Assembly: GCA_031266775.1 (NCBI GenBank)
Contig: JAISAQ010000056.1
Location: 160,655 to 224,654 of the forward strand
Source: Treponema sp.
Lineage (GTDB): Bacteria > Spirochaetota > Spirochaetia > Treponematales > Breznakiellaceae
Direction of reading: 5' to 3'
Length of the DNA: 64,000 nucleotides
Shown here: in pieces, positions 11,968 to 24,155 of the stretch
How the letters are laid out: each line of letters opens with the position of its first letter
Position numbering within the stretch: the stretch's first letter is position 1
The notes under the pieces: generated by a model
Databases searched by the model: none
What the model saw: only the letters and a program-made list of their open reading frames with translations
What the model was told of the DNA's origin: nothing
Program-made: the position numbers and the translations under genes

Positions 11968-14900
11968 ATGAATTTCAAGGGCGTTCTTTTATGCGTATTC
12001 CTCACCGTGTTCCTGGGCTTTTCTCCGGCGGCACAGGAGGCGGAAGAAGAGGCCGCGCCGGCGGCCGGGAGCGCCGGACATACCGAAGGGGAGGAGGCCC
12101 CAGGAGACGGCGAAACGGCACAGACGGAAGAGCCGCCCGGCAATCTTGACGTGGAAAGCCTCAGGGAAAACATTACCCGCGAGGCAAGCACCGAACTTGC
12201 CTCCATCACGCTGGGAAATTCAGACGTGGATCTTTTGGTATCCGGTTTCTGGAAAGGCACGCTTTCGGGAAATCTGGGCTTTACCCGCAGCAGCCTGGGA
12301 ACGGCGCTTTCCACCGATTCCCCTTTTCTTTTCGAACAGGAAGCCGATCTGACCCTCTCGCTCTGGGTAAGGAACCGATGGTTTGTCGAGGCAAATTTTC
12401 TGGACGACTACAGCATGAATACCTACCGGGCAGGTTATCAGGGCCGTCCCGGTGAAGCGGTTCAATATGTGGGAATAGGTAACACCGGCCTTGATTTTCC
12501 TGTTTTTCCCTACATGGATCTGGGGGGCAATTCGCCTAATTCCTTTGGCATTTACGGACGTTTCGGCGCGGGTGATTTTACGGTCCACAGCCTGTTCCGC
12601 TATGACGCCGCCGCCAGGGAGGAGCGGATCTTTGTGGGGGACCGCGAACGGACCTACAGCTATGTCGGCCTTGAAAGCCCCGTCCATGGCAGGTTCTTTG
12701 TACTCCCCGACGACAACCTCGATGTTCCCCCCGTTGTGTACGTTGAAGATGTCAACGGGGAACTCCGGGACCAGAACAACCGCCGCTGGCGGCGCGCCCT
12801 TTCGACCGAGTATGCCGCCGGGGCTTCGCAGGGGGTTGTTGAACTTGGCACAAGCCCGGCCGGCATGGTCGCCGCGGCGTATACGAAGGGCGGGAATTCC
12901 GCGCCCTGGGGGATCTCCATGGGGAACTACGCCACCCCGGCGCAAAGCGGTTTTCTTGGGGAAGCGCAGAGGTGGTTCGGCGCGGGGGCCAATCTTGAAG
13001 ACTACCCGCAGCCGGGGGATTCCGCCTCTCCCCCGGCGGGGAGGCCGGGAACCGTCACGTTCAACAACGGCGTCACCGCCCTTGTGATCTACGAAAGGGG
13101 AACCTTCTCCCCTTTTGAACGGCAGAGCCGGTACCAGGCGCCTTCCAGTTCGTCAACAGGGGCAAGCCTGGTGCGGCTTTCAAACAAGGAACGGATTCCG
13201 GGTTACGACATTGTATCCGTAGAGGAAAACGCCATAAGCGCGGACGTTCCCCTGTACGCTACGCAGGAGGCCCGGCGGGGGCTTTACGAACTTGCGGGCC
13301 CGGTCCGGGGCGGGCGGGAGAGCGGAACCCGCTGGCCGATGGGAAACCTGTACCCCGAAATCTACCTTCCCGGCTCTTATCATTTTAACGGGGACATGGG
13401 CGTGCGTTTTACCAGTTACGGCAGTTCAGGCGGAGGCTCCTTCGCGCTGGGAACCGACGTGGTGCCGGGATCGGTGCAGGTCTACAGGAGCGGCCTTCCC
13501 GATACGGCCTTTACCTATGACGAATCAAGCGGAACGGTGACGCTTGGAAATCCCCCGCTTCACAATGAAGTCATACGGGTAAGTTACCTGAAACGGAGCA
13601 ACGAACGGCGGCACGGCAGCATAGCCGCGGGGGTGGGCATGGTGTACGATCCCGGCCGGGCCTGGAGTTCGGAACTTGCCATCGGGCTCAGGTGGAACCT
13701 CAGCGGGGAATCGTATTCCGAAGAAGGGGCGTCAAGCCCGGGAACCGTGGGAATTTCGGCGGCGTCAAACTGGGACTACGACAGGCTCAAATCAAGAATA
13801 ACCGCGGGATTTTCCTTTGAGCAGCCCGACACGACGGGGATGTACCGGGTCGCGGGAATGGAAGGAAACGAAATCGTCCTGTACATGCCCGCGGAGAATT
13901 CCTTTAACGCCTGGCCGCCTTCCTCTCTTTCCCTTGATAACAGGGCCCCCCTTGTGTACCGCAACTACTACGACAGATCCATCCTGGGCAACCTCACGCA
14001 GATTACCTGGGCCGGCTCCTCCGTTATCGCGGGCAGGGACGGCCCCTATCCCGCGCTCGACTCGCAATTCGGCTCCCAGGCGCAGGTGCTGGCCGCGGAA
14101 TTTACCCTTGACAGCAGCAAGACCTGGGCCGGTTTCGAGGTTCCCCTGGGAAGCGAAAGAGAAATTCTGGAACGGGGAAGCGAGATTGAAATCCCCTTCC
14201 GTTTCTACGGTTTCTCCTCGCTTCCCGCCGCGGGCCAGATAGAAGCTTTCCTTCAATTCGGTTCCCTTTCGGAAAAGGACTACGGGATCGCCGAAAACGA
14301 CAACCTCATAGTTACCATCCCTCTCTTTACGGCGTCCTCCGCATTCGACGAGAACGCGCGGATCGTGCCGTACAGGCTTACCGACAGCGACCGCCAGAAA
14401 CTGCAAGGCGCCGATCACATGCGGCTCGTTGTTACCTACAGCGGAACGGCCGCCATGCCGGGCCGCATCCTGCTCGCCCCTCCCATTGTGCGGGGGGCGT
14501 CCTGGCGGCCCGTCGTCGAAAGCGCGGGGTTCCTCCTCCCCGCTACAGGCGGGGTTGCCAGCGCCGCCGAATGGCTGGAAACAGGAACAGGGAGGCTTGA
14601 GGATAAATACGGTGAAATGACAGGCAAGCTTCACCCTGAAGGAAGCCGCCAGCGGGTGCTGAAACTGGATCTGGATCTCGGCTCCGGCAGGACCGCGGGC
14701 GCCGACGGCCGCGTGCCTTCCCTTCCCCTTTCCGAATATGAAACCGCAAGTTTTTTTATCAAGACCGAACAGTTCAGCCCGCCCCTGGAAAAACTCCGTT
14801 TTATCCTTGCCGGCGGTCCCGAACTGCAGTATTCGGACATTACCCTGGACGCCGAAATTCCGCTGCTTCCGTATTTCAGCCCCGGCGAATGGCACAAGGT

Positions 14901-16824
14901 AGAGATACAGTACCGGGGAAAGGGGGAAAGGATAACAATAGACGGGTACCCCGCGGCCGGGGCGTCTGTCCGTTACCGGCCACCCCCGTCATCGCAGACA
15001 TCCTCCCAAACCGGAGACACCGCAGGGGGGCGTTCCCGGTACGCCGCGGTGCTCGTTACGGGCAGCGGCAGGGGAACTGTGTTTCTTGATGAAATCATCC
15101 TGGAAGACCCCTCGCCCGCTTACCGCTTTAACGGGGGAAACGTGACCGAATGGCATTATCCTGAAACCATACTTTCGGCGGGGGGGAAAAAAATCCTCGA
15201 AAACTTTTCCGTGAGGACGGCGACGGAAGGCGCCCTGCGCGGCGATCCTTTTACCTCGGCGGACGAGCTTGACGCGGGCGCCATGAACAGGTCGAACGCC
15301 GGAATCACCTTTCTTGGGGCGGACCTTGAAGGCAATTTCGCCTTCAGCACCGTTGAAAAGGACCTGTACTGGTCGGCCGGCCACGGCACTTCCCGAAGCT
15401 GGGGGCCTTTGTCCGCCGGTGAAAATTTTTCACTTTCGCCCCATGACGACGCCGCCAATCACCGTTTTAACCTGCGCCTCGCCGGGCCTTTCAGCGCGGG
15501 GATGGAAGGCGAGGCGGACTACGATACCGAACGCTTTGTCCGCAGGTGGAACGGTTCGGCCGGCCTCGCCTTTTCCGAAAAGCTCATTCCCGTGTTCTCC
15601 GCGAATACCCTTGCCACATGGACGGAAAACACGCCCGAGCCGTCCTTGTGGCTCAACAGTTACGGGCGGACCTGGGCGGAAACATGGAAGAGGCTGCTCC
15701 CCGATTCGGGAAGGGGGGCGGCGCGGCGGGATACCCGCACCACATTCCGCCTTGCCGAGGAAACAAGCCCGGTGGGGGCGGGCCTGTCCCTTGAAGGTTC
15801 TACCGCCTTTTCGGCCCCGAATACCACGCTCCTTTCGGCGCATAACGTGCGTTTTGACGTTCCGGTCGTTTTCCCTTCGTTCAGCGTCCTCTTCAGGGGG
15901 GAACGGGGTTTCAGGCGACAGCTTGATTACGCGGACGACAATGTCTTTTCCGACGGGAGGAAATTCACCGAATCGGTAAGGGATTCCCTTCCCCTCTGGA
16001 AGGTGGTTCCCTTTTATTCCCTTTTTACGCCGTCCCTGTACGGAACCATGAAGAAGGGGCTCGAGGCTTCGCCGTCAAAATCCTCCGCGGAATACACGTC
16101 GTTCAACGATCGTTTCGGCCTTACCCTGACGCTTCCGGAAAGGTACGATATTTCGTCTTTGTATATTCCCTCCGGTTTTGATTTTCAGATAGGCCGGACG
16201 CTGGAACAAAAATTCGACGTTCCGGCGGATCTGCTTAACGTCGGAGGCAGCCTGGTGTTTACCTCCATCAACCTCTTCGGCGCCATGGGATCATCTCCCC
16301 TTTTCAGTTTCTACGCCTTCGACGAACTTAACCATTCCGTCGCCGTTTCCACGGCCCTTCCGCGCGGAGAGTCCCCTTCATGGAGGGTGCAGTCGAGCCT
16401 CGGTCTCAATTTTCAGGGCTTTGCCGGGGCAAGCCTCGGTACGGCGAATACCCTTACGCTGGGAACGTCGGGCTGGATCGAAAGCATCGAGGCAAGCTGG
16501 ATAGTTCCGACAAAACGGAGCCTTCTCAGCGTCTTCTACAATTTTATCGCCCGCATGGTCCGGACACAGTCCTCATGGCTGACCATTTCGGAACTTTTGG
16601 ATTCCGAATACGAACAATTCCGGAAGGAAACGCTGGAAGTGGCCGTGGACAATTCGGCGGACGCCCTCACCTGGAGGCTTTCGGCGGGCCACGAATCGTC
16701 GATACGCATGACGGGGCGGCTTAATTTTTCGGTTTTTGCCAAAATCAGCCTTGCGGAAAATACCGGAACGGAAACCTTTACCTTCCTTGGAACCATAGGG
16801 ACAACGCTGAACGTCAGTTTTTAA
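11968..16824 (+). CDS. Very large predicted outer-membrane/cell-surface protein, 1618 aa (possibly SprA-like)
   Basis: Signal peptide, beta-rich sequence throughout, C-terminal aromatic ending LGTIGTTLNVSF; sense-strand ORF with no competing start-to-end reading. Confidence 0.75.
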   Translation: MNFKGVLLCVFLTVFLGFSPAAQEAEEEAAPAAGSAGHTEGEEAPGDGETAQTEEPPGNLDVESLRENITREASTELASITLGNSDVDLLVSGFWKGTLSGNLGFTRSSLGTALSTDSPFLFEQEADLTLSLWVRNRWFVEANFLDDYSMNTYRAGYQGRPGEAVQYVGIGNTGLDFPVFPYMDLGGNSPNSFGIYGRFGAGDFTVHSLFRYDAAAREERIFVGDRERTYSYVGLESPVHGRFFVLPDDNLDVPPVVYVEDVNGELRDQNNRRWRRALSTEYAAGASQGVVELGTSPAGMVAAAYTKGGNSAPWGISMGNYATPAQSGFLGEAQRWFGAGANLEDYPQPGDSASPPAGRPGTVTFNNGVTALVIYERGTFSPFERQSRYQAPSSSSTGASLVRLSNKERIPGYDIVSVEENAISADVPLYATQEARRGLYELAGPVRGGRESGTRWPMGNLYPEIYLPGSYHFNGDMGVRFTSYGSSGGGSFALGTDVVPGSVQVYRSGLPDTAFTYDESSGTVTLGNPPLHNEVIRVSYLKRSNERRHGSIAAGVGMVYDPGRAWSSELAIGLRWNLSGESYSEEGASSPGTVGISAASNWDYDRLKSRITAGFSFEQPDTTGMYRVAGMEGNEIVLYMPAENSFNAWPPSSLSLDNRAPLVYRNYYDRSILGNLTQITWAGSSVIAGRDGPYPALDSQFGSQAQVLAAEFTLDSSKTWAGFEVPLGSEREILERGSEIEIPFRFYGFSSLPAAGQIEAFLQFGSLSEKDYGIAENDNLIVTIPLFTASSAFDENARIVPYRLTDSDRQKLQGADHMRLVVTYSGTAAMPGRILLAPPIVRGASWRPVVESAGFLLPATGGVASAAEWLETGTGRLEDKYGEMTGKLHPEGSRQRVLKLDLDLGSGRTAGADGRVPSLPLSEYETASFFIKTEQFSPPLEKLRFILAGGPELQYSDITLDAEIPLLPYFSPGEWHKVEIQYRGKGERITIDGYPAAGASVRYRPPPSSQTSSQTGDTAGGRSRYAAVLVTGSGRGTVFLDEIILEDPSPAYRFNGGNVTEWHYPETILSAGGKKILENFSVRTATEGALRGDPFTSADELDAGAMNRSNAGITFLGADLEGNFAFSTVEKDLYWSAGHGTSRSWGPLSAGENFSLSPHDDAANHRFNLRLAGPFSAGMEGEADYDTERFVRRWNGSAGLAFSEKLIPVFSANTLATWTENTPEPSLWLNSYGRTWAETWKRLLPDSGRGAARRDTRTTFRLAEETSPVGAGLSLEGSTAFSAPNTTLLSAHNVRFDVPVVFPSFSVLFRGERGFRRQLDYADDNVFSDGRKFTESVRDSLPLWKVVPFYSLFTPSLYGTMKKGLEASPSKSSAEYTSFNDRFGLTLTLPERYDISSLYIPSGFDFQIGRTLEQKFDVPADLLNVGGSLVFTSINLFGAMGSSPLFSFYAFDELNHSVAVSTALPRGESPSWRVQSSLGLNFQGFAGASLGTANTLTLGTSGWIESIEASWIVPTKRSLLSVFYNFIARMVRTQSSWLTISELLDSEYEQFRKETLEVAVDNSADALTWRLSAGHESSIRMTGRLNFSVFAKISLAENTGTETFTFLGTIGTTLNVSF

Positions 16825-21404: not shown

Positions 21405-23963
21405 TCAAATTTCGTCAAAGAGGAACGATTCCGTTTTTCGCAGCAGCGACTCAAATTCCCCGAAATACCGTTTTGTTTCGGGAAGCGAACGGATAAAAAT
21501 TTCGCCGTAGCGCTTCTTGATGATCCTGCCGTCCAGAACCGCCACCACGCCGCGGTCGCTTGAGCGCCGCATGAGGCGGCCGAAGCCCTGCTTGAATTTC
21601 ATCACCGACTCTGGAAGCGAAAGCTCCATAAAGGCGCTCTTCCCCTTTTTTTCAAGGGCCTCCCCGCGCGCCTCAAATACGGGATCGCTTGGAGCCCTGA
21701 AGGGAAGCCGGCAGAGGATCACAAGACGCAGGGTATCGCCGGGGGCGTCGACGCCCTGCCAGAATGAATCGGTGGCAAAAAGAACGCTGGTCTTGTCCTC
21801 AAGGAAATTCGAAAGAAGGCGGGAACGGTCGTCATCCCCCTGTTTGAGGCACCGTATCCCCATCTCCCGTAGCTCCCCGGCGGCGGCGGCCCAGGCGCTC
21901 TCCAGAGACTGGTAGGAAGTAAAGAGCGCCAGGGCGGACCCCCCGGCCGCCGCCGCAAGGCGCGTAACAGCCATGTCGACAAAGCCCTGATACCCCGGCT
22001 CTTCCGGCAGCGGCGCGTCGGAAGGAACGGCAAGGAGCGTTGAAACGCGGTAGGGAAAGGGAGAAGGAAAACACCCCGAAAGGTACTCCCTGCTTCCGGC
22101 AAGACTGAGCCCACAGCGGCCCGCCCAGTAGCCGAACGAGCCGTTTCCCACCGTGAGCGTCGCGGAAGTACAGATGACGCTTTTGTTCGGCCTGAACAGG
22201 GCCTCTTCCAGCGCGGGGGCAATGTCTACCGGGGTAACCGTGTAGGTGATCCAGGGATTACTCCCCTCCCCCCCGGAATCGCCCCGGCCCCGGCGCGGCT
22301 CCAGCCACATGACTTCCTCCGGTTTTTCCCGGTAGGCGATAAAGGAGGAACATATTCCCCCAACATCGTCGAGCCTCCTCAGCGCCGTCTTTATTTCCCA
22401 CATACAGCTTTCAAGCCCCTCGTCTCCTTCCCTGAGATCCTCGCATTCTTCAAGCAGGGTCCGTACCATATCCCCCAGCGCGCCTAAGTGTTTGCGAAGC
22501 GAGGCGAAATGGGAAAACAGGGGAAGGAAGGCGTCTTCCCGTCCGGGCGTAAGGCGGAAGGTCCCCTGAAACCCCTGACCGGCTCCCCCGCCGCAGAGGA
22601 GAAGCCCCGCCTCGTCAAGCGAATCGGCCGCGGCGCGTATCTTTTCAATCAGCAAAGCCGCCTCGTCAAGCCTGTCGCCTCCAGGGTCCCGGTTTGCCGC
22701 GGAGGCAAGCCGCACCAGAAGCCCCCGCCGGTTTGCACGCCGCCTCCTGTAGAGCCGCCCCAGCTGGCGGAAAATTCCCAGGCGGCTGAATTCCTTTGAA
22801 AAAAAAGATGTTGCCGCGTCTTCCATGGTGTGGGCCTCGTCAATGATTACCCGCGTATAGGGAGGCAGAACCACGGTCCCCTCGTAACCGGCTCCCTCAC
22901 GCCGCGCGGCAAGATCGGCAAAAAGGAGGTGGTGATTAACCACCAGCAGCTTCGCGTCGGCGGCTTCTTTTCTGAGGGAAAGGACAAAGCAGCGTTCCCG
23001 CACGGGACAGCGCATCCCCATGCAGAGATCCGCCTCGGAACAGATCCGCGACCAGACTTCCCCGGAAGGAACAAAGGAAAGATCGGAACGGCTGCCCGTC
23101 CCGGCCGTTTCGGCCCAAAGCGCGATGCGCCGCAGTTCATCGTTATATTCGTCACGCAGATCAGATTCCCCGCGGGCGTCTTCAAGACGGCGCAGGCAAA
23201 GGTAGTTGCCCCGCCCTTTCATGAGCACGGCCTTGATCTTCCGGCCCGCCGAAAGCGCCACAAGGGGGATGTCCTTTTCAAAAAGCTGCTGCTGAAGAGT
23301 GATGGTGGCAGTTGAGATGACAATACGTTCGCCGTTTTCAAGCGCGTAATGCACCGCGGGAAGAAGATAGGCGAAAGATTTTCCCACCCCCGTTCCCGCC
23401 TCGGCGGCGACAAGCGCGTCCTCGTTAAAACCCCGCACGACAAGCCGCACAAGATCCAGCTGAGATTCCCTGGGTTCCCAGGACGGCAGCCTGAGGGCGG
23501 CGCTTCCGCCCTCTTCAAGCGCCGCGCAGATCCTGTCCGGGTCAAGTGACTTTATCTTTTTCCGCCGTACAGGTTCGGCCACTACATAGACCTTTTCAAC
23601 CCCGTTGTCGGTAATGTAGGCGCCCGTCCCCTCCTCGGCGGCCCGGGAGGCGATGCGCAGATCGTTGTCGCTGGGGATCAAAAAACCTGAAGGGTGGTTG
23701 TGAATAAAAACATCAGGCGGGGAACTTTCGGGGGCCCGGCCGGGATCTTCTTTGCAGGCGGAACCAGGCGGGGATTCCCCCTCCGTCCACCGCCACACCG
23801 CGGGAACCGCGCCCTCGTTTCCCCGGGCAAGCACCCTGATCCTCTCCACGAGTCCCGCGCCGTCTATCCAGCCCAGGGCGAAAACCTCGTTTCCCCCCGA
23901 GGCGCTTATTTCAGCCCTGAGTTCCGCGCCGCATGCCTTCGTAAACCGACTGTCCGCCCGCAC
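21405..23963 (-). CDS. DinG/XPD-family helicase with N-terminal RadC-like JAB/JAMM domain
   Basis: Helicase motifs EAGTGVGKSFAYLLP, DEAHTMED; Fe-S cysteines LCMGMRCPVRERC; N-terminal FIHNHPSGFLIPSDNDLRIA. Confidence 0.85.
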   Translation of the reverse strand: MRADSRFTKACGAELRAEISASGGNEVFALGWIDGAGLVERIRVLARGNEGAVPAVWRWTEGESPPGSACKEDPGRAPESSPPDVFIHNHPSGFLIPSDNDLRIASRAAEEGTGAYITDNGVEKVYVVAEPVRRKKIKSLDPDRICAALEEGGSAALRLPSWEPRESQLDLVRLVVRGFNEDALVAAEAGTGVGKSFAYLLPAVHYALENGERIVISTATITLQQQLFEKDIPLVALSAGRKIKAVLMKGRGNYLCLRRLEDARGESDLRDEYNDELRRIALWAETAGTGSRSDLSFVPSGEVWSRICSEADLCMGMRCPVRERCFVLSLRKEAADAKLLVVNHHLLFADLAARREGAGYEGTVVLPPYTRVIIDEAHTMEDAATSFFSKEFSRLGIFRQLGRLYRRRRANRRGLLVRLASAANRDPGGDRLDEAALLIEKIRAAADSLDEAGLLLCGGGAGQGFQGTFRLTPGREDAFLPLFSHFASLRKHLGALGDMVRTLLEECEDLREGDEGLESCMWEIKTALRRLDDVGGICSSFIAYREKPEEVMWLEPRRGRGDSGGEGSNPWITYTVTPVDIAPALEEALFRPNKSVICTSATLTVGNGSFGYWAGRCGLSLAGSREYLSGCFPSPFPYRVSTLLAVPSDAPLPEEPGYQGFVDMAVTRLAAAAGGSALALFTSYQSLESAWAAAAGELREMGIRCLKQGDDDRSRLLSNFLEDKTSVLFATDSFWQGVDAPGDTLRLVILCRLPFRAPSDPVFEARGEALEKKGKSAFMELSLPESVMKFKQGFGRLMRRSSDRGVVAVLDGRIIKKRYGEIFIRSLPETKRYFGEFESLLRKTESFLFDEI

Positions 23964-24041
23964 CCCGCCTTCCTCCCGTGGAGCATACTACGGCGCCGGG
24001 AAAAAGGCGAGAGGCCGTAGTACCTCTGGCGGCGCGGCGTC

Positions 24042-24081: not shown

Positions 24082-24155
<74 letters not shown>

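Follow-up and report, generated by a model that had tools for sequence, protein, structure and literature searches.

JAB domains of the RadC type were found fused to DinG/RAD3-like helicases some years ago (PMC5512222, 2017). According to that paper the JAB shares a deaminase-like fold whose members mostly act on nucleotides or nucleic acids, while the RadC-type JABs themselves probably lack a groove for the ubiquitin tail and are positioned where nucleases sit; its discussion of the group cites Iyer et al. (2011) for a proposed role in nucleic-acid processing. More recently the fusion received a name, 'RadC-like DinG', for a subgroup modelled on the protein of Desulfuromonas soudanensis, with an E/H/H/D centre, a protease-like fold and an occurrence in genomes without HolC (PMC11981726, 2025). 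A DALI search in that study returned metalloproteases and no nucleases, and its authors state that no research has been done on RadC-like DinG; its main text mentions neither Treponema nor Spirochaetes. Whether the RadC-type JAB is a nuclease, a protease or neither is the question that these two papers leave. Two further systems bear on it: the exonuclease-fused DinG of S. aureus, in which both exonuclease and helicase are needed for crosslink resistance (PMC12345164), and the related animal helicase FANCJ, which translocates into a crosslinked protein and unfolds it for a separate protease, SPRTN (PMC12279946).

The window analysed here, a stretch of 64,000 nucleotides from Treponema sp., contains an orthologue of this architecture, which is already known and widespread. 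Its parts are as follows.

21405..23963, minus strand: coding sequence of RadC-like DinG, 852 residues, JAB plus YoaA/DinG-type Fe-S helicase; a single open frame whose orthologues in Spirochaetota and in other phyla are built alike
23968..23977, minus strand: ribosome-binding-site-like GGGAGGAAGG, read from the sequence, upstream of the GTG start codon at 23963
23571..23963, minus strand: N-terminal JAB/JAMM domain, approximately residues 1-131 (RadC profile matches, AF2 model, Foldseek)
23886..23888, minus strand: JAMM Glu26, invariant in 25 of 25 spirochaete proteins and present in 87 of 88 across phyla, the 88th being gapped there
23661..23702, minus strand: JAMM stretch HNHPSGFLIPSDND, residues 88-101, with H88, H90, S98 and D101, invariant
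21423..23504, minus strand: DinG/YoaA-type SF2 helicase, residues ~154-847 (Pfam, NCBIfam and PDB sequence matches)
23376..23396, minus strand: Walker A GTGVGKS, residues 190-196, invariant in 25 of 25
22989..23198, minus strand: Fe-S region, C256 to C325 with C314 and C319, invariant in 25 of 25 and kept in 80-88 of 88 across phyla
22830..22841, minus strand: DEAH box, residues 375-378, conserved in the alignments
21564..21590, minus strand: motif VI QGFGRLMRR, residues 792-800, conserved in the alignments

The coordinates and strand of the single open frame held up on checking, and the domain call of the preliminary description of this DNA, a RadC-like JAB followed by a DinG/XPD-type Fe-S helicase, is upheld by Pfam, NCBIfam, the motifs and the RadC profiles. 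A fusion produced by a frame error or by assembly is ruled out, since the same frame recurs in dozens of independent genomes. At one other locus (L025, G022:C57, 1224-3792) JAB and helicase do lie in different frames with one frameshift between them, reflecting either an assembly error or a broken gene.

The helicase region matches Helicase_C_2 in Pfam (4.4e-41) and YoaA in NCBIfam (4.8e-155), and its relatives of solved structure are deposited DinG and XPD helicases, as judged by sequence match to the PDB. Its conserved motifs comprise the Walker A lysine K195, C256/C314/C319/C325, DEAH at 375-378 and QGFGR at 792-796. In a cross-phylum alignment of 88 fused proteins, every protein retains the Walker A lysine, D375, E376 and H378; the Fe-S cysteines are near-invariant, with Ser instead of C256 in eight. 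The window protein thus shares with the RadC-like DinG subgroup the N-terminal RadC-like domain with a putative E/H/H/D metal centre (E26, H88, H90, D101), the YoaA-like core with MD1/MD2 motor motifs and the four-cysteine Fe-S domain. Nothing essential differs; the window protein has a longer loop (~57-83), modelled with low confidence, before the HNHP strand. E. coli YoaA/DinG has the same helicase core and Fe-S cysteines but no N-terminal JAB, and YoaA partners HolC, which the window genome, like the genomes of the subgroup, appears to lack: HolC (PF04364) had no match in this 87% complete genome, with E. coli and Caulobacter as positive controls. The window protein is also the sole DinG-type match that I found there, although at 87% completeness a second DinG may be missed. 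The type IV CRISPR protein CasDinG was considered and rejected, as the PADLOC models match the helicase core that the two have in common and, judged by eye, none of the neighbouring ORFs looks cas-like.

The N-terminal region indeed carries the complete JAMM pattern claimed for it, E26 followed by H88-N-H90-P-S-G-x3-P-S98-x2-D101, which is the E-xn-H-x-H-x7-S-x2-D motif of JAMM metallohydrolases. E26, H88, H90, S98 and D101 are invariant in all 25 spirochaete homologues, which were chosen blind to the motif, by similarity over the whole protein. The cross-phylum set was retrieved with HNHPSGxLxP as search pattern, so that only E26, S98 and D101 are independent there, and these three are invariant wherever sequence exists. 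Taken alone, the window protein stays below the curated cut-off of Pfam RadC (PF04002; 22.1 bits), with 17.2 bits at full length (residues 85-110) and 21.4 bits for the JAB domain by itself, and the family is therefore needed to argue its RadC likeness. Other fused members do pass the cut-off, and Pfam RadC is matched by each of the 25 spirochaete proteins in the alignment, at best with 1.2e-12. Among structures, Chlorobium RadC (2qlc) is hit by the family profile of the fused JAB at 4.7e-5 and by the cross-phylum profile at 4.3e-8, and hhalign aligns the fused-JAB profile to stand-alone RadC with 98.4% probability. Judged by sequence, the RadC likeness of the family profile is clear; the preliminary description had left room for a failure to match JAB/RadC profiles, and at the level of the family these matches dispose of it. 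Structure prediction, which it had proposed as a check, gave an AF2 model of the domain with a JAB/MPN fold (pLDDT 83.7, pTM 0.76). Foldseek with this model finds JAMM proteases plus RadC (Rpn11, AfJAMM, CSN5 and 2qlc), at modest TM-scores of about 0.4-0.6 to which the low-confidence loop at ~57-83 contributes. Invariance, Pfam RadC, 2qlc, hhalign and the AF2 fold establish that the JAMM pattern is not a chance match. At one locus (L126, G086:C12:1500-5000, ORF from 494 on the minus strand) the JAMM loop is lengthened between HNHPS and S-x2-D by ~15 residues around PHPPFERGSQGD, an insertion that resembles an in-frame inserted repeat.

The fused JAB shares the JAB fold and the HNHPSGxLxPSxxD motif with stand-alone RadC (PF04002; 2qlc) but lacks the RadC-specific segment that precedes the JAB there, and the C-terminal Asp-His of RadC (LDHI), invariant in 12 RadC proteins, has become Asp-Asn or Asn-Asn, with Asn as the second residue in 85 of the 88 fused proteins. 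Fused JABs form their own clade: in a tree based on few columns, with RadC represented only by the proteins closest to the query, 89 fused JABs and 22 RadC lie on opposite sides of a single branch supported at 100/100. A true RadC gene is present elsewhere in the same genome (L001).

Fifty of 59 relatives have a match, in most cases a full-length one that takes in the JAB. The JAB profile scores strongly (E below 1e-17) in 83 of 197 genomes of a phylum-wide Spirochaetota sample (table counted by hand), 82 of them in helicase-length frames of 809-1123 residues and one at a contig edge; the true RadC genes of this sample are a separate, weak-scoring group with frames mostly of ~220-260 residues. 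In a public genome scan, where some genomes are metagenome bins whose taxon labels may be wrong, about 59 of 80 loci are JAB-DinG fusions. The fusion occurs in Spirochaetota, Desulfuromonadales/Geobacter, Gemmatimonadota, KSB1, Fusobacterium mortiferum (Fusobacteriota), Halanaerobiaceae, Dadabacteria, Sumerlaeaceae and others. The rarity implied by the preliminary description is thus wrong, and its own caveat, that the fusion might prove widespread and already described, turned out to be justified (many phyla and a named subgroup; PMC5512222, PMC11981726). A phage or other mobile origin was not borne out: the JAB had no match among 50,697 phage records, and plasmid matches were essentially to the helicase only, with the exception of a Fusobacterium record whose match begins at residue 81 of the query.

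What might such a protein do? RadC-like DinG probably acts under replication stress, at stalled or crosslinked forks, as a YoaA/DinG-type 5'-3' Fe-S DNA helicase that carries a JAMM metallohydrolase at its N-terminus. The helicase would load on single-stranded DNA at such forks and translocate 5'-3', and the JAB, binding one Zn2+ through two His and the Asp with the Glu as general base, would hydrolyse something that the helicase exposes. This proposal is consistent with the RadC and helicase domain matches, the JAB fold, the JAMM residues invariant in the spirochaete set (E, S and D also across phyla), the intact helicase motifs, the single DinG-type match and the failure to find HolC, the last in line with PMC11981726. 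Against it, no activity is reported for any RadC-like DinG in the literature that I found.

A parallel in layout is ExoDinG (S. aureus, B. subtilis), which likewise has an enzyme module N-terminal to the DinG helicase. There the module is a DEDD/DnaQ exonuclease, whereas the window protein, in which a Pfam scan detected no exonuclease family and thus no DEDD/DnaQ domain, has the JAB, which would take its place. By analogy with S. aureus DinG, the simplest reading would be a helicase that acts on forks or crosslinks and bears another hydrolytic module. As substrate of the JAB, nucleic acid and an (iso)peptide bond of a protein bound to DNA are about evenly balanced, with a slight lean to nucleic acid because the JAB is positionally equivalent to nuclease modules. 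That the JAB is a nuclease working beside the helicase is plausible, if somewhat short of an even chance: besides its position, it has kin in the deaminase-like fold that mostly act on nucleotides or nucleic acids, RadC-type JABs have been reported in DinG/RAD3 fusions (PMC5512222), and crosslink resistance by ExoDinG takes nuclease and helicase together (PMC12345164). However, no nuclease activity of a JAMM protein is reported in the literature found, and the structural neighbours, by Foldseek here and by DALI in PMC11981726, are proteases.

Those same neighbours raise the possibility, on balance doubtful, of a metalloprotease that works while the helicase pushes, clipping DNA-bound or crosslinked proteins or stripping off a ubiquitin-like modifier. 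The fused JAB shares its fold and the full Zn-protease-type motif with the JAMM metalloproteases Rpn11, CSN5, AfJAMM and PfJAMM1, the first three being its nearest folds, and the unfolding by FANCJ for SPRTN (PMC12279946) may serve as a precedent, split over two proteins. Yet in sequence the fused JAB is closer to RadC, RadC-type JABs are said to lack the ubiquitin-tail groove (PMC5512222), no ubiquitin-like gene was identified next to the locus, and the support is by analogy alone. A bolder version, in which the fused JAB is a JAMM family distinct from RadC and the whole polypeptide is helicase and protease in one, unfolding and clipping DNA-crosslinked proteins as a bacterial counterpart of FANCJ plus SPRTN, seems improbable.

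On several occasions the JAB has been lost and the helicase retained: DinG orthologues without it occur in several lineages whose relatives keep it (L026, L030, L112/L113, L114, L115). I looked for a relocated JAB of the fused type in these genomes and found only ordinary RadC or nothing, and a move of the JAB to its own gene after loss of the fusion is rejected accordingly. Furthermore, the frame from 460 on the plus strand of L122 (G200:C3:211000-214600) keeps the JAB but has lost the HNHP motif (FVVSVHRSRAVPSEDD): it reads VHRSRAVPSEDD where others have HNHPSGxLxPSxxD, with VHRSRAV in place of HNHPSG, and the JAMM Glu is apparently lost too, while the DinG helicase looks intact. L122 is a natural motif-dead variant of the JAB. 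Because such JAB-less and motif-dead orthologues exist, the JAB is not needed for the helicase everywhere, and its reaction is dispensable in some lineages, which counts against the proposal of a helicase joined to a working metallohydrolase. The losses without relocation and the retention of a JAB with a broken motif in L122 would suit a domain that serves for structure, sensing or partner binding and whose chemistry is no longer relevant; this is nonetheless unlikely, as a pure scaffold would need none of the five JAMM residues, and all are invariant in the motif-blind set, with E, S and D so across phyla.

I found no gene neighbourhood shared by different phyla; conservation is local, within Gemmatimonadota and within one Treponema-related group, and a function-revealing conserved operon is rejected on this ground. 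In the window, a tRNA-Arg(ccg) gene lies just upstream of the DinG gene on the opposite strand (24082-24155, plus strand). Beyond it, by reading of the ORF list, come two permease ORFs resembling those of ABC transporters and one ORF resembling a substrate-binding protein; the tRNA gene separates the DinG gene from a group of genes that look like a sugar ABC transporter. Elsewhere in the window (11968-16824, plus strand) is a large ORF of 1618 residues that begins like a signal peptide and may encode a protein of the outer membrane or the cell surface.
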